Made by a program: the position numbers and the translations under genes. The notes under the pieces were generated by a model. The model was not told the DNA's origin. It worked only from the letters and a program-made list of their open reading frames with translations, and did no database searches. From contig NZ_PEBJ01000002.1 in the NCBI RefSeq assembly GCF_002802915.1, forward strand, positions 62,001-126,000: a stretch of DNA of 64,000 nt. Direction: 5' to 3'. The stretch is from Bifidobacterium felsineum (GTDB lineage: Bacteria > Actinomycetota > Actinomycetes > Actinomycetales > Bifidobacteriaceae). This document shows, piece by piece, positions 2,357 to 43,000 of this stretch (position 1 is its first letter; each line of letters begins with the position of its first letter).

Positions 2357-5300
2357 ATGTATCTCAAAGAGCTCACCCTACGCGGCTTCAAATCCTTCGC
2401 TTCGGCCACCACCTTGCGGTTCGAGCCTGGGATTACCGCGGTCGTAGGCCCGAACGGGTCAGGTAAGTCGAATATCGTCGACGCGCTGACCTGGGTCATG
2501 GGTGAGCAGGGTGCCAAGAACCTGAGGGGCACATCCATGGAGGACGTGATCTTCGCGGGCACGTCCTCCAGACCTCCACTTGGCCGCGCACAGGTGAGCC
2601 TGACCATCGATAACTCCGATCACACATTGGATATCGATTACACGGAAGTCACCATCTCCCGCACGATATTCCGCAATGGCGGTTCGGAATACGCCATCAA
2701 CGGGTCGACATGCCGCCTGCTGGATATCCAGGAGCTGCTTTCAGACACGGGTCTTGGCCAACAAATGCATGTGATTGTCGGCCAAGGACGATTGGACGCG
2801 ATTCTCAAAGCCGATCCGTCCGGACATCGCGCATTCATCGAGGAAGCCGCAGGCATTCTCAAACATCGCAAGCGCAAGGAACGCGCCTTGCGCAAACTGG
2901 CCAATACCGAGACGAATCTGAACCGTTTGGATGACTTGCTCCGAGAATTGCATCGCCAGTTAGGTCCTCTCGGTAGACAGGCCCGCATTTCTCGCAGAGC
3001 GGACGCCATTCAGATATCGGTGCGAGACGCGCAGGCCCGACTGTATGCCGAAGATGCGCAGCAGTCGATGACCCGCCGGGAAACCGTGCGCAAGGAACTG
3101 GGCGAAGTGCGAATTGATTTGGCTGCCGCCCAACGTGAGCTGGCGCAAGTGAAGGTGCGCATCGAGCAGGTGGAATCCCTGACCTCCCAATCGAGTCCCG
3201 CCATCGCGCAAGCCAATCAATACTGGCATGATTTCGCCCAAACCCGGGAACGGCTGCTTGCTCTGGCGCAACTTGCCGACGAACGTGCACAATCGACGGC
3301 TCACGGCATCGTCAGCAATATGGGCGAGGATCCCGACTTGCTGCATGCGCGTGCCGATGAGCTTGAGCAACAGGCCGGTGTGCAGAGCCGCATGGTGAGC
3401 GATGCCCGACTGGCTTTCGACAAGGCCACGGAACAGCGAGCCGATAATGAAAGACAGTTGGCTTCGGTACGCCAGACGCTGACTGAATTGCGCAAAACCG
3501 CGCAGGAGCGCGACTCCGCAATCACCAGGCTTCGTGAATTGATTGCTCGCGAGGAATCCGCAGTGCAATTAGCCCAAAGCAGGGCCAAGGATTATACAGG
3601 CCAGCGCAAAACGGCAGTCGAGCAGCGTGACGGCGTACAGCTCCAACTTGATGCCTTGCATAAGGAATCCGAAGCGGTTTCGGACGACAATGGTGCGGCG
3701 TTGGATGCCGCCCGTGCAACATTGTCGGAATGCCGCGATGCGCTGAATGATCTGACGGGCACGCAGCGCAATCTGCAATCGCAGATCATCTCCCTGAACG
3801 CCAAGGCCGATGCGCTCGCCGACACATTGGCCAGTCGTAACGCATCCGGCGCGTTGGAACATGACGAAGCCGCGCACGTTTTAGGGCGACTCACCGATTT
3901 CATCCATGTCGCTGAAGGATGGGAAGAAGCGGTGGCCCATGTGCTCGGCCAATTTTCCAGTGCCATCGTGGTCGCCGAGTCGAGCAACATGCTCCATGCG
4001 TTGGAACGTGCCCGCGAAGACAAGCTGGGGAAGGCCGTGATGATTGCGGCAGCGCATGGCTCGACCGCGCGAATGGAACAACATCCGCCAGTGACAGATG
4101 CCGACGATGCGGACAGGGGAACCGTTCGTCGGCTTGATTCGCTGGTCACCATCAATCCTCAGGCTGCCAACAACGTTGCGGCACAGGATGTGGTAGCTGC
4201 TGTGCGACTGCTGCTGAACGATACGATTGCGGCGGATAGCCTCGAACAGGCACAACATCTGGTGGAATCCGGACAAGCGGAACAGGCAGTGACAGCCCAA
4301 GGCGAAATGCTGTGCAGGGGAGTGGCGGCGGTTGGTGGCTCATCGCTCTCCCAATCCGATTTGGCTCTTGCCGCCAAACGCGATAAGGCATTGGCACAGG
4401 CATCGCAACTCGAAGTTCAGGAGCAACAGGTTGCCGAACAGGTAGCCCACGCCAAACGGCAGCGGGATGAGGCTGCGCGAGCCGTCGATCAGGAATCCTC
4501 CAAGCGCACTGAGCTCAGGCTCAAGATACAGCAAGCGCAGAGAACATTGCAGGCGACGCAACAGCGACTTGCCTCATTGAACAAGCAGGTCGCGCAATTC
4601 GATCATCGTATTGCCGAGACGAAATCGCAGGAGCATGACCATCAGCTCAAGCTCGATGATCTCAAGCGTGCTTTGGAATCCGCTCAGCAGTCCGGCGGCA
4701 CACAGGAACAATGGGATGATCTCGAGGAACGGGAACATGAACTTGAACAGGCATTGTCCCGTGCTCGGGAGCATGAGGTCGAGGCCAAAATCGCTTGGAA
4801 TGATGCCTCCCGTAAGGCCGAATCATTGCGCAGGCAGGTGGAATTGCTTCGCGATAACGCCAAGGAGGCGACGGAACGACGCATCCGTATCGAAGCATTG
4901 AATGCCAAGCGCAGGGTGCAAGTCACACATTTGGAAGGTGTGGCCCAAGATGCGCGCAGTGTGGCTGCGATGGTGGCGGAGACGCTGCAAGGCATAGCAG
5001 GCGAGCGTGACCGTCTGCAGGCTGAAGCGTCCAGCCATGATGAAGAGCTGAAGACGTTGCGCGCGCAACGCAATGCCATTGAGCCCCAGGTCACTGATCT
5101 GACCGCTCGTGAACACACGTTGGATGTGAATCGTGAACGACTCGCCATGGAGACTGGCCAGCTTACGCAGAAAGTTTCCGACGAACTCGGATTGACGTTG
5201 GAGGAATTGGTCCAGGAATATGGTCCTGACCAGCCCGTGCCGGTTCTCGATGATGACGGCAACCCAGTGCCGCTCGACGAGTCGTCGGATGACGATGTTT

Positions 5301-18824: not shown

Positions 18825-19751
18825 ATGAATAGTAGCTTCGACAGACTCACCGAGCAGTTCCTTGTGCACATCGGCGTAGAACGAGGACTAGCGAAAGCCA
18901 CCGTGTCGGCATATGAATCCGACGTCAACAAGTATGTTGACTGGCTTGAGTCCAGAGGCATTGAAAATGCGGATGCCATTACCTCCCGGGACGTCGAGGA
19001 CTACGTCGTATCTTTGGATGCTGCGGGGGAGTCCGCGCGATCCAAAGCCAGACGGTTGGCTTCCCTTCATGAGTTCCACCGTTTCGCACTGGCCCAGCAC
19101 GTGGTCGCCAATGATGTTTCCGCGGCAATCAAAGCGCCGAAAGGTGCATCCACATTGCCCGATGTGCTGAATATCGATGAGGTGACCAAGCTCCTGGATG
19201 CGGCCGCAGTTGGTGGATCGGACGATCCTGTGGTACTGCGCAACAAAGCATTGCTGGAATTCATGTATGCCACTGGCTGCCGCGTCTCCGAGGCTGCAGG
19301 AGCGAATCTTGACGATATCGACTTGGATGAGCACGTGGCACGCCTTATGGGCAAAGGCTCCAAACAGCGTCTGGTGCCGATTGGCAGTTATGCATGCGAG
19401 GCATTGACCGCATATCTCAATATGGCTCGAGGTGAGCTTGAGCGCCGGTCGTCGGCTGCCATACCGGAGCGACGGGCGCTGTTCCTCAATAAAAGAGGTC
19501 GCCGCATTTCTCGGCAGTCGATTTGGGAAGTGGTCAAGGATGCAGGGAAACGTGCCGGTATCACGCGACCGTTGCATCCGCATACGCTGCGTCATTCGTT
19601 CGCCACGCATCTCATTCAAGGCGGCGCTGATGTGCGCACCGTGCAGGAACTGCTGGGGCATGCCAGTGTGACCACCACACAGATTTACACACATGTGAGC
19701 CCTGAGCACTTGATTGAAGCGTATCTGTCGTCCCATCCGCGCGCCAGATGA
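18825..19751 (+). CDS. xerD: Site-specific tyrosine recombinase XerD
   Basis: With XerC (34.5 kb) it resolves chromosome dimers at dif. The 308-residue protein has a core-binding domain (residues 1-95) and a catalytic domain with all tyrosine recombinase residues: R153 in ATGCRVSEA, lysine in MGKGSKQRLVP, HxxR in HPHTLRHSFATHL, histidine in LLGHASVTTTQ and the nucleophilic tyrosine in TQIYTHVSPEHL. It is followed by parA, scpA and scpB, a common segregation gene order. No ribosome binding site is seen; a -10-like box lies 8 nt upstream. Confidence 0.94.
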   Translation: MNSSFDRLTEQFLVHIGVERGLAKATVSAYESDVNKYVDWLESRGIENADAITSRDVEDYVVSLDAAGESARSKARRLASLHEFHRFALAQHVVANDVSAAIKAPKGASTLPDVLNIDEVTKLLDAAAVGGSDDPVVLRNKALLEFMYATGCRVSEAAGANLDDIDLDEHVARLMGKGSKQRLVPIGSYACEALTAYLNMARGELERRSSAAIPERRALFLNKRGRRISRQSIWEVVKDAGKRAGITRPLHPHTLRHSFATHLIQGGADVRTVQELLGHASVTTTQIYTHVSPEHLIEAYLSSHPRAR

Positions 19752-28227: not shown

Positions 28228-28230
28228 AGC

Positions 28231-28299
28231 ACTTTTCGCACGAAACGGACGTTCGAGGGCTGAAAATCGGTCCATCCACGTACTTTTCGCGCGAAAAGT
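28231..28299. promoter_or_regulatory. Pair of operator-like sites upstream of pheA
   Basis: ACTTTTCGCGCGAAAAGT (28282-28299) is a perfect 18-bp palindrome. A related, less symmetric copy ACTTTTCGCACGAAACGG lies at 28231-28248, 51 bp upstream, which is about five helical turns. The second site ends 14 bp before the putative pheA -10 box. The regulator is unknown. Confidence 0.6.
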
Positions 28300-28313
28300 G
28301 TGTGGAACGCCGC

Positions 28314-39706: not shown

Positions 39707-41722
39707 ATGACTACCAACTCCAACGCACAGATGCTGGCCATGCAGAAGGAGCACGGCCCGCTGCTCGAAGTCAAGAATCTCGCCGTCGACTTCACCACGG
39801 ACACCGGTAAGCCGGTGCACGCCGTGCGCAACTCCTCCTTTACCGTCTACCCGGGCCAGTGGGTGGCCATCGTGGGCGAGTCCGGTTCCGGTAAGTCCAC
39901 CTCCGCCATGGCTGTCTTGGGTCTGCTGCCGGGCACTGGTCATGTGGTCGGTGGTTCCATCAAGCTCGACGGCCAGGAGATCGCAGGCGCCAAGCAGTCC
40001 GAATTCGACAAGCTGCGCGGCACCAAGATGGGTCTGGTCCCGCAGGACCCGATGAGCAACCTGAACCCGGTGTGGCGTATCGGCACCCAGGTCAAGGAAG
40101 CGCTGAAGGCCAACAACATGGACGTGGCCCACGAGAAGCGCTCCGCTCTCGCCAAGGCTCTGGCCGGCGAAGACGCAGCTGTGGAACTCAAGGGCAGCGA
40201 TGATGAGACCTTCCTCGGTTCCAAGGAGATGCCGGCCCTGATGGACGAAGCCAAGAAGGCTTTGACTGAAGCTGGCGTCACCGGCGAAGCATTCGATAAG
40301 GCCGTGGCACGCTTCGAAAGCGAATGGGTTCCGGGCTCCGAAACCCGTTGGCGTGTGGCCGATGACCTCATCAAGGCTGGTGTGTCCGACGATCAGGCTT
40401 GGTACCTGGCCAAGAAGTATGTCACCGGTTCCAGCATGGACGATCGCATCGCAGGCCTGCTTTCCGAAGCCGGTCTGCCGGATGCCGCCACCCGTGCCCG
40501 TCAGTTCCCGCACGAGTTCTCCGGTGGTATGCGCCAGCGTGCGCTCATCGCCATCGGTCTGGCTTGCCGCCCTGATCTGCTCATCGCCGACGAGCCGACC
40601 TCTGCACTGGACGTGACCGTGCAGAAGCGCATCCTCGACCACCTGCACTACCTGACCGACTCTCTCGGCACCGCAGTGCTGTTCATCACCCACGATCTGG
40701 GCCTCGCCGCCGAGCGTGCCCAGCACATCGTTGTGATGTACAAGGGTCAGGTCGTCGAGTCCGGTCCGTCTCTGGAAGTGCTCCAGCACCCGCAGCACCC
40801 GTACACCAAGCGACTGGTGGCTGCTGCTCCGTCTCTGGCTTCCCAGCGCATCATCTCCGCCAAGGAGCGCGGTGAGAACGCCGATGCTCTGCTGGACCAC
40901 AAGGTGGCTGATGAGAACGAGCTTGAAAAGAGCGAGCACATCATCACCGTTGACCACCTGACCAAGGAGTTCAAGCTTCCGCGTAAGAAGGAAATGTTCA
41001 AGGCTGTCGATGACGTGTCCTTCTCCGTCAAGCGTGGCACCACTCTGGCCATCGTGGGTGAATCCGGTTCCGGTAAGTCCACTGTGGCGAACATGGTGCT
41101 CCACCTGCTGAAGCCCACCTCTGGCAAGGTGTTCTACGAAGGCCGCGACACCTCGACGTTCAATGCCAAGGATTTGCTGGACTTCCGCCGCCATGTGCAG
41201 CCGGTGTTCCAGAACCCGTACGGCTCCCTGGATCCGATGTACTCCATCTACCGTTCCATCGAAGAGCCGCTGCGTATCCACAAGATCGGCGACCAGAAGT
41301 GGCGTGCCAACCGTGTCAAGGAACTGCTTGACATGGTGGAAATGCCGCAGTCGGTGATGGGTCGTTACCCGAACGAGCTTTCCGGTGGCCAGCGCCAGCG
41401 TATCGCCATCGCACGTGCTATGGCCCTCGACCCGGATGTCATCGTGTGCGATGAGGCTGTCTCCGCCCTTGACGTGCTGGTTCAGGATCAGGTGCTGCAT
41501 CTGCTCAACGATCTGCAGGCCGAAAAGGGCTTGAGCTACCTGTTCATCACCCACGATTTGGCTGTGGTTCGTCAGATCGCCGACGAAGTCGTGGTGATGC
41601 AGCACGGCAAGCTCGTCGAACACGCCACCACCGATGAAGTGTTCGACCACCCGCAGAAGCAGTACACCCGAGACCTGCTCGACGCCATTCCAGGCGGCAA
41701 GCTCCAGCTCGGTCTGGACTGA
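39707..41722 (+). CDS. oppDF: Fused OppD-OppF oligopeptide ABC transporter ATPase
   Basis: Both ATPases of the importer are in one 671-residue chain. The first has Walker [10 protein letters not shown] (57-65), Q-loop [14 protein letters not shown] (Q113), signature FSGGMRQR (271-278) and Walker [13 protein letters not shown]. The second has [29 protein letters not shown] and [12 protein letters not shown]; the alanine and valine next to DE are usual for OppF. Between the first Q-loop and signature lies an extra helical segment of about 100 residues (141-243, [14 protein letters not shown]...[10 protein letters not shown]) missing from ordinary OppD. C-terminal HPYTKRLV and [11 protein letters not shown] motifs confirm the peptide-transporter subfamily. 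Confidence 0.93.
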
Positions 41723-41745: not shown

Positions 41746-41832
41746 GGCGAAGCTCGGCATACATAGTGCCCGACACACTCAAGGCCGTTTGGCCAAGCTT
41801 ACAGTCGGTCACTATGTATGCCGGGCTTCGCC
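41746..41832 (-). repeat. 87-bp palindromic element, copy 1 (29-bp arms, 29-nt core)
   Basis: Arms 41746-41774 and 41804-41832 pair over 29 positions with one wobble and one mismatch. The core is 41775-41803. Read on the minus strand, the core is 26/29 identical to the core of the second element and contains CTTGGCC-RAAC-GGCCTTGAGTGT. The arm sequence (starting GGCGAAGCTCGGCATACAT) is unrelated to that of the second element. It lies 23 bp after the oppDF stop. Confidence 0.9.
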
Positions 41833-41881
41833 TTATTGAATTACAAAATGCCTCAGTAATTGTTTATATGGTTGATACGGA

Positions 41882-41968
41882 GGTGATGGTTGGGATATGC
41901 GTTGCTGGACCGTAGGCTTGGCCGAACGGCCTTGAGTGTGTCCAGCAACGCATATCCCAACCATCACC
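41882..41968 (+). repeat. 87-bp palindromic element, copy 2 (29-bp arms, 29-nt core)
   Basis: Arms 41882-41910 (GGTGATGGTTGGGATATGCG...) and 41940-41968 are perfect reverse complements over 29 bp. The core is 41911-41939, GTAGGCTTGGCCGAACGGCC in its left part. It is in opposite orientation to copy 1, 49 bp away across an A+T-rich spacer, and ends 23 bp before the exoA stop. In both copies the core is bounded by GAC and GTC. Confidence 0.9.
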
Positions 41969-41991: not shown

Positions 41992-42852
41992 TCACACGTC
42001 ATAGGTGATGGTTAGGGGAGCATGGTCGGACCAGCGTAGGTCGTAGGTGGGGGCTTTGTCGATGACGAATCCGCGGGCGGTCTCCGCAAGCTCGGGCGTG
42101 GCGAACTGATAATCAATGCGCCAGCCGACATTGTTGTCGAAAGCGCGGCCACGTTGACTCCACCATGTATATGGGCCTTGGATATCGCCGGCAAGGTTGC
42201 GCATCACATCAACGAATTCATATTCGTTCAGCCATTTGTCAACGTACGCGCGTTCTTCAGGCAGGAATCCGGCATGCTTCTCGTTGGCCTTGGCGTTCTT
42301 GATATCCAACGGCGTATGCGCGATATTGAAGTCGCCGCAAAGCACGGCCTGCTTACCACCACGCGCTGCTTCATCTCGCAGCTCGCCCATACGAATCAGC
42401 ATCGTGTCCAAGAATCGGTATTTCTGTTCCATCTTGAGCGGGTCATCGGTATTGCCGGCATGCACATACACGCATACCACGGTGATCACATAGCCTTGCG
42501 GCGTGCGGATATCCGTTTCAATCCAACGGCCGGAATCCACATCGTCGTTCAATCCCGGCAAACCGTATCGCTGCTCGACAACCGGCAAATCAGAGAGCAA
42601 CGCCACACCTGCACGACCCTTCACCCGGCAGATTTCATTGGTGAGCGTGAAATCCTCGGCCGATTCTATGACGCCTGCCTGAGCGTATTCAAATGCGAGC
42701 TTGCCGTAAATCTTGTCGATATCCGGCTGCGGGGCACGAACCTCCTGCATGCACCAAACATTCGGCGTATGTCTGCCCGCCCATGTGGTAATGCCCTTGC
42801 GATCGGCGGCTCGCAAACCATTGACATTGGAAGTGGTAATAGTGATGGTCAT
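41992..42852 (-). CDS. xth: Exodeoxyribonuclease III family (AP endonuclease)
   Basis: Cuts DNA at abasic sites during base excision repair. The 286-residue protein has the EEP-family residues: N in ITTSNVNGLRAADRKG, E in VWCMQEVRAP, the GDFN motif in VLCGDFNIAHTPLDIKNAK, YTWWSQRGRAFDNNVGWRIDYQFAT and the final catalytic D-H in RWSDHAPLTI. ATG 42852 fits the family N-terminus. It has no ribosome binding site; TACTAT ends 6 nt before the ATG. Its 3' end faces the two palindromic elements. Confidence 0.93.
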   Translation of the reverse strand: MTITITTSNVNGLRAADRKGITTWAGRHTPNVWCMQEVRAPQPDIDKIYGKLAFEYAQAGVIESAEDFTLTNEICRVKGRAGVALLSDLPVVEQRYGLPGLNDDVDSGRWIETDIRTPQGYVITVVCVYVHAGNTDDPLKMEQKYRFLDTMLIRMGELRDEAARGGKQAVLCGDFNIAHTPLDIKNAKANEKHAGFLPEERAYVDKWLNEYEFVDVMRNLAGDIQGPYTWWSQRGRAFDNNVGWRIDYQFATPELAETARGFVIDKAPTYDLRWSDHAPLTITYDV

Positions 42853-42858
42853 GCGGCC

Positions 42859-42864
42859 ATAGTA
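42859..42864 (-). promoter_or_regulatory. Putative -10 box of the exonuclease III gene, leaderless arrangement
   Basis: TACTAT on the minus strand ends 6 nt before the ATG at 42852, with no ribosome binding site. Confidence 0.4.
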
Positions 42865-43000
42865 TTCACTTCCGCCTACCAATCCACGTCAATGGATTTG
42901 CTGAACGCTGCCGGCAAATCAATAACATCAATGTTCAGCTTTCTTTGAGCCGGGGTGCTAGGCTTAGCAGGGTTGCAACCGTTACATGAAACGAGGAATT

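Follow-up and report, generated by a model that had tools for sequence, protein, structure and literature searches.

The two palindromes at positions 41746 to 41968 of the window, by which we mean the whole 64,000-nucleotide stretch of Bifidobacterium felsineum DNA that was analyzed, are members of a hairpin family with a near-constant tip and with drifting arms that are mostly paired. The reading that we favor, with a probability of about 0.58, is that these elements are non-autonomous mobile palindromes of the REP/RPE kind, made up of an apical core of ~35 nt on a ~29-bp stem of free sequence, and that a putative enzyme moved them as a folded single strand.

Copy 1, on the plus strand, consists of a 29-nt left arm (41746 to 41774), the conserved core ACACTCAAGGCCGTTTGGCCAAGCTTACA (41775 to 41803), which is one of 16 in the genome, and a 29-nt right arm (41804 to 41832); its arms pair at 27 of 29 positions. 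Copy 2 lies in the reverse orientation, with its core on the minus strand (41911 to 41939), one arm facing copy 1 (41882 to 41910, minus strand, the right arm in core orientation) and the other facing the neighboring minus-strand gene (41940 to 41968, minus strand, the left arm), and its arms pair at 29 of 29 positions. Each core contains a GGCC/GGCC inner stem, at 41783-41786 and 41791-41794 in copy 1 (plus strand) and at 41920-41923 and 41928-41931 in copy 2 (minus strand). The coordinates, the arm lengths and the 29+29+29 layout reported in the earlier note were exact on recomputation, as were the perfect arms of copy 2, the two imperfect positions of copy 1 and the agreement of the cores at 26 of 29 positions once one of them was reverse complemented. 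Its description of the arms of the two copies as unrelated did not stand: the left arms are identical at 17 of 29 positions, a value reached by 0 of 10,000 shuffles, and the right arms at 15 of 29, and the arms are therefore related. A 22-nt core motif (≤3 mismatches) had two matches in the window against 0.00 expected from shuffling, and a chance origin of the core pair is excluded. The plus-strand gene upstream of copy 1 (39707 to 41722), which from its motifs we take to encode an ABC transporter ATP-binding protein, has a stop codon that ends 23 nt ahead of the element, and so does the minus-strand gene (41992 to 42882, presumably exodeoxyribonuclease III-like) that lies upstream of copy 2 in core orientation. 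No Rfam family reached its gathering score in the window, and at relaxed E values the elements matched only miRNA, snoRNA and lncRNA models, far below their cutoffs. Elsewhere in the window, a 23-nt imperfect inverted repeat (87%) surrounds CACTTTTCGC...GCGAAAAGTG at 28230 to 28306; it lacks the core and is an unrelated palindrome.

The B. felsineum genome contains 16 core copies, 8 in each direction (26-nt motif, ≤3 mismatches; reversed control, 0), and 55 of the 112 Bifidobacterium genomes searched have the core, at most 42 times in one genome (control, 0). The proposal that a conserved core is joined to variable yet palindromic arms had been made from the two window copies alone, and it survived the genome-wide search as a real trait of the family: 136 of 168 distinct Bifidobacterium-group copies had paired flanks, counted as at least 80% of 28 ungapped positions, and the arms differed between copies. 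The remaining 32 showed weaker pairing, had shifted arms or were partial. An exact scan for the core in a named genome collection matched at least 115 stretches; among the matches listed, judged by their titles, were 25 named Bifidobacterium species, four unnamed Bifidobacterium, one Bifidobacteriaceae metagenome-assembled genome (MAG), which has 3 copies, and 13 loci from Candidatus Saccharibacteria MAGs, several of them from goat and sheep gut. Nine Saccharibacteria genomes, all selected via a matching locus, carried 1 to 15 copies each. With ≤2 mismatches allowed, the core was present in 7 of 199 sampled genomes of the carrier Saccharibacteria family, four of which have one or two copies. 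At the same setting it was absent from 377 of 379 sampled Patescibacteria, a sample in which the two positives include the query genome and the reversed control gave one chance match, and from 395 other sampled genomes of the Bifidobacterium phylum, the single positive among 396 being B. felsineum itself. The exact pattern was found in no viral contig and the core in no plasmid, and among phage records it occurred in one unannotated 9.2-kb "Bacteriophage sp." fecal scaffold (MT837054.1, L191), near its end. A phage or plasmid origin was rejected on this absence, the one fecal scaffold apart.

The core was near-invariant in 151 Bifidobacterium-group and 14 Saccharibacteria copies, with the consensus GAC-ACACTCAA-GGCC-GTTC-GGCC-AAGCYTACG-GTC, a conservation that is partly by construction because the core itself was used to fetch the copies. 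Its inner stem covaries, being GGCC/GGCC in 191 of 232 copies and GGGC/GCCC in 24 of 232 (the latter form occurs in Saccharibacteria), and the internal loops that flank this stem are conserved. The outer stem has a modal length of 29 bp (72 of 168 copies; 30 bp in 24 and 28 bp in 20). Palindromy played no part in fetching the copies, and a mean of 0.87 of 28 ungapped arm positions in the 168 copies formed Watson-Crick pairs, compared with 0.46 when partners were shuffled among copies and 0.25 to 0.30 when partners were slid. From the 142 of 168 copies that paired at ≥22 of 28 ungapped positions, we took 55 representatives with arms less than 70% alike. Positions 7 to 28 were paired in 80 to 100% of these, with all four Watson-Crick pair types at each of positions 7 to 22; over positions 13 to 25, pairing was 91 to 100%, and 12 of the 13 positions had all four pair types. 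Bases at the outer ends of the stem were weakly conserved. Among the 16 copies of the B. felsineum genome, the arms had a mean identity of 0.46, compared with 0.28 for shuffled arms, and the core had one of 0.96. The most similar arm pair in that genome was ≤0.68 alike, which fits an old or inactive family; some species have sets of copies whose arms are related by eye.

A search of 0.86 Mb of the genome by palindromy alone recovered five of the six copies known from the pattern, missing the weakly paired copy at C11:13236. It also found two variant-core copies (CGTAAAGCATGGCCCGAGCGGCCTGGAGCGAT and ACGCTCCGGGCCGCTCAGGCCAAGTCCTTACG) on contig C11 of B. felsineum, at L278:10150-10237 and L291:7249-7338, and a variant similar to this pair is present at the window's orthologous locus in two other genomes (G021 and G054; L049 and L050). 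Many core-free palindromes were found as well, and the arms of some pair perfectly over 25 to 28 bp; long palindromes here are therefore not all of the element's kind.

The history of the arms could be followed at orthologous loci, where we compared 64 non-identical pairs of copies, which share members and so are non-independent; 63 of these fell into four groups by flank identity. Core identity between orthologues stayed at 0.96 to 0.99. In the 3 pairs with flank identity of ≥95%, identity was 0.93 for the outer arm and 0.96 for both the left and the right neighboring sequence. The corresponding values were 0.77, 0.77 and 0.83 at 90 to 95% (12 pairs), 0.66, 0.64 and 0.68 at 85 to 90% (25 pairs), and 0.45, 0.54 and 0.51 at 75 to 85% (23 pairs), the arms appearing slightly faster because they were compared ungapped and the flanks gapped. 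Thus, the arms and the intergenic DNA beside them drift at similar rates, while the core and the pairing persist, and compensatory changes are visible at the window's own locus. Since the arms are inherited with their locus and drift there, they need not be made anew at each insertion. If every compensated change had to wait for two separate mutations, paired sites should lag behind unpaired ones; their nearly equal pace suggests hairpin-templated copying from one arm to the other. In selfish DNA that sits idle, pairing would not be expected to last at old loci unless it was maintained by template switching or by host selection.

Comparison between species bore out the expectation that the presence of an element at a given site varies, other species having the same gene neighbors with the element missing. 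The window's locus in one genome (G024) has an ordinary terminator instead of the element. At another locus (L002), B. felsineum has a terminator and an element, and B. saguini keeps the adjoining terminator without the element. Absent sites can be losses. B. saguini is nearly gapless opposite one B. felsineum copy (L009/L406), and this absence may be a loss because a third species (G073) has a copy at the same place. We saw no insertion at the level of strains. Target-site duplications of at least 4 bases at the stem ends were found in 0 of 146 copies. Four of the 146 copies have direct repeats of 6 nt near the ends, where shuffling gave 0.35 (largest value, 3), a weak excess with too few cases for a rule.

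Mismatches in the stems were biased between strands. In core orientation, the 142 stems contained 117 A·C against 56 G·T mismatches and 92 C·T against 9 G·A mismatches, and the 55 representatives contained 46 against 27 and 49 against 5, respectively. Read on the opposite strand, the favored mismatches are G·U and G·A, which are tolerated kinds, pointing to a single folded strand. A tandem G·A adjoining the core recurs in both phyla. The opposite strand was also predicted to be the more stable, as RNA in 145 of the 168 and 50 of the 64 copies folded and as DNA in 135 and 47 of these, respectively, counts that include the constant core, which itself favors one strand. The strand bias is compatible with RNA and single-stranded DNA alike.

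In Saccharibacteria, predicted genes enclosed 23 of the 53 contexts at core-fetched loci, 16 of them in the sense and 7 in the antisense direction, a count that leaves out 5 copies fetched by tgt or ligA and 6 copies that lay too close to the end of a contig or locus; at the loci fetched by tgt or ligA, 5 of 5 copies were inside genes, as expected. The intragenic copies are in frame, in hosts that include ligA, topA and gatB. Nine host proteins were assigned by Pfam to DNA ligase, topoisomerase, queuine tRNA-ribosyltransferase (TGT), GatB, MurB, RecX, exonuclease VII, a class I tRNA synthetase and an exonuclease with Exonuc_X-T_C. Between them, the copies are read in three frames, giving DTLKAVRPSLRS, GHTQGRSAKPTV and, in antisense, EDRKLGRAPLSVS. 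Base-exact junctions could not be placed in Saccharibacteria because the orthologues are too diverged.

In Bifidobacterium, the elements lie mainly behind genes. According to codon-based gene calls made for this analysis, 155 Bifidobacterium-group contexts comprised 60 tandem sense, 54 convergent, 30 tandem antisense and 7 divergent cases, together with 3 that overlap a predicted gene and 1 that lacks a called gene on one side; no copy (0 of 155) was inside a gene. Background gaps of ≥90 bp in the fetched stretches of B. felsineum were 316 tandem, 73 convergent and 104 divergent (n = 493), and divergent gaps are thus under-represented among the copies (7 of 155 versus 104 of 493). A same-strand gene lies just upstream in 115 of 155 contexts, with its stop codon at a median distance of 26 nt. 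A promoter in the left arm, considered for a TTGAC-like flank, was dropped, TTGAC being within 9 nt of the stem in 19 of 146 copies.

This placement is what one would expect under the main rival to a mobile element, which we regard as unlikely, namely, an RNA hairpin used by the host at 3' ends, cotranscribed with the upstream gene, its stem blocking exonucleases or recruiting RNase III and its tip binding a protein, and spread by duplication and transfer. The excess of same-sense over antisense copies in tandem gaps (60 versus 30) also fits a transcribed 3' hairpin, and so do the persistence of the core between orthologues while the arms drift and the retained pairing of the stem. However, the mismatch bias favors the strand opposite to the mRNA strand of the upstream gene, the Saccharibacteria copies are inside reading frames in both orientations, other species manage without the element at the same site, and the window has no Rfam family at gathering score. 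In addition, only 18 of 146 copies have a U-tract (at least 5 T among the 8 nt that follow the stem). The same scarcity, with 0 terminator-like sites at the window's copies, told against the earlier suggestion of paired convergent terminators. Intrinsic terminators that came to share a loop through local duplication would sit well with the position behind genes and between convergent genes, but they are refuted as the whole story by the genus-wide and cross-phylum copies, and at L002 the ordinary terminator adjoins the element and is kept in element-free B. saguini; we give this explanation hardly any weight. A reading of every copy as a small RNA gene of its own on its best-folding strand, with a tip that binds a common partner and a stem that serves as a scaffold, would account for the strand bias toward G·U and G·A, the predicted stability bias toward one strand and the conserved internal loops around the inner stem. 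We nonetheless judge it improbable, as no strongly conserved columns precede the stem on the folding strand, there are 0 promoter-like sites on either strand at the window's copies, and the frames of conserved genes are an odd location for such genes.

A further alternative, raised in the earlier note, is that, whenever an element inserts, the core directs the synthesis of new inverted arms with the target as source, as by hairpin-primed copying; one locus looks as this would predict, and a few partial copies also speak for it. In B. felsineum (L289, ~19560-19660), a single arm is present with no core or second arm where B. saguini has a full element (L185); the lone arm is of the predicted kind, but deletion is equally likely there because the flank common in the family is also present. 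A half copy in B. cebidarum (L089), made up of the left arm and most of the core, stands opposite an element-free B. felsineum site (L273) and is joined at a GTAGGC common to target and core, beside the end of an open frame, a single case of possible insertion that hints at a GTAG target. A tandem array in B. pluvialisilvae (L178, ~2538-3026) is built of incomplete elements that each retain a single arm and a portion of the core, and B. callitrichidarum retains the flank and the first arm bases where B. miconisargentati has an element (L056/L051). Against these cases stand the arms of orthologous copies, which are inherited with the locus, descend recognizably from a common arm and drift like the adjacent intergenic DNA, and the arms within a genome, which are more alike than chance. 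The making of arms from the target is therefore not borne out, and we hold it to be very improbable.

Under the mobile-element reading, the strand that reads GAC-CGTARGCTTGGCCGAACGGCCTTGAGTGT-GTC would fold and be recognized, probably through the core, the inner stem and the tandem G·A. The stem would merely hold the core and the ends together, and a stem that is only a holder would leave the arms free to drift. A trans-acting enzyme, common to Bifidobacterium and Saccharibacteria or passed between them, would have done the moving, and template switching within the hairpin, as the drift of paired sites suggests, may copy a mutation from one arm onto the other. Mobility of a folded single strand would explain the strand bias, the unrelated sites, the presence in genes in both orientations, the lack of duplication at the stem ends and the sharing across phyla. 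An IS200/IS605 Y1 or RAYT transposase was rejected as the mover in the carriers tested: B. felsineum has no Y1 transposase (PF01797), 7 of 112 genomes of the genus have one, and PF01797 was found in 0 of 15 carriers, 11 of them Saccharibacteria. A laterally shared protein was also sought by blastp of the open reading frames of one Saccharibacteria genome (G113, 0.40 Mb) against 1.14 Mb of B. felsineum, the window included, and no odd shared gene was found, a weak comparison because about half of each genome was compared. There, 102 queries matched, with a median identity of 35%; the top matches included antisense frames and otherwise look like what we take to be UvrA, RecA and ribosomal proteins.

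The family shares features with several known systems. MITEs have ends that are common to their copies and are mostly flanked by target duplications. The present elements resemble them in being short and non-autonomous with terminal inverted repeats, but here the ends differ from copy to copy (mean arm identity, 0.46) and duplications of at least 4 bases at the stem ends are absent (0 of 146). The attC sites of integrons are strand-specific folded hairpins with unpaired or bulged bases, conserved outer boxes, and a stem and tip that are variable; our elements share the strand-specific folded hairpin with a variable stem sequence, whereas here it is the tip that is conserved and the outer ends are only weakly so. 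In the excerpts of PMC3733652 that were available, REP/GTAG repeats are described as hairpins with stems of 5 to 13 bp that lie for the most part behind genes and between convergent ones, with copies also inside replication and repair genes. The present family is likewise a hairpin with GTAG or GTAA in its core, a 3' bias behind genes and a place between convergent genes, but in comparison with those excerpts its GTAG/GTAA is internal, at the foot of the core, and is not an end tag, and its stem is ~29 bp. Unlike REP/RAYT systems, it has no accompanying Y1 transposase in B. felsineum or the 15 carriers tested. Rickettsia palindromic elements (RPE) are described, in excerpts of PMC3733652 and PMC10969869, as several families that are intergenic or inserted in frame inside conserved genes, the longer ones (~150 bp) being said to encode a conserved peptide. 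As far as those descriptions go, our elements are like RPE in being short palindromes of several families that are intergenic or, in Saccharibacteria only, in frame in unrelated conserved genes; they differ in that the constant part is the tip and that three reading frames are used. CGTC-tagged repeats, according to the same excerpts of PMC3733652, have no known transposase, a trait in common with our elements, but they have an end tag and stems of 8 to 9 bp, unlike the ~29-bp arms found here, which have no conserved sequence beyond a weak composition and have end bases that are weakly conserved. The family is thus likely of the REP/RPE kind without being placed as a member of either group: the REP end tag and a RAYT were not found, in-frame insertion as in RPE was, and RPE were compared by description. 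Among open-license PMC papers, our searches turned up no report of such hairpins in Bifidobacterium or Saccharibacteria, and the main text of PMC3733652 contains no occurrence of Bifidobacterium, Actinobacteria or Saccharibacteria.

If the mobile-element reading is true, a major genus of the human gut carries a mobile hairpin family in dozens of its genomes, as do some of its ultrasmall gut neighbors, a sequence of ~35 nt connects two distant phyla, and an undiscovered single-strand recombinase or transposase is predicted. The near-neutral drift of paired sequence would also allow selection for pairing to be separated from hairpin-templated correction.

Exchange of the tip was suggested by one loop of ligA, which we sorted by hand, between anchors of our choosing, in 30 Saccharibacteria loci. 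Six have the core (one reversed), 1 has a variant core, 7 have other hairpin modules, 11 have a loop of native length (27 to 30 nt between the anchors) and 5 have intermediate or odd sequences. A core-bearing locus (L376) and one with a three-way-junction-like module (L388) agree in their outer arms at 26 of 32 positions. The outermost of these belong to ligA codons that would be conserved in any case, unlike the inner stretch AATACCCTCCT, and modules therefore appear to have been exchanged on inherited arms. A bolder version of the mobile-element reading, which we put forward tentatively and with more doubt than belief, is that identity resides in an exchangeable apical module alone (the 35-nt core or, in Saccharibacteria, larger three-way-junction modules) on a generic long stem. 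Here, a putative non-Y1 enzyme would act on one folded strand, modules would be swapped on the same arms at hot spots in essential genes, hairpin-templated copying rather than selection on sequence would keep the arms paired, and transfer in the gut would have taken the element across the divide between Bifidobacterium and Saccharibacteria. The larger three-way-junction-like tips, with motifs such as CCCGTGGCGACGGG, mark additional hairpin families that occur in frame in the same ligA and tgt loops (L378, L382, L388, L389 and L349 to L351), and these modules have no match in Rfam. A motif of the module unlike the core was absent from the Bifidobacterium loci examined; it had 24 matches in Saccharibacteria loci, some of them overlapping, and one in L242, likewise from Saccharibacteria.
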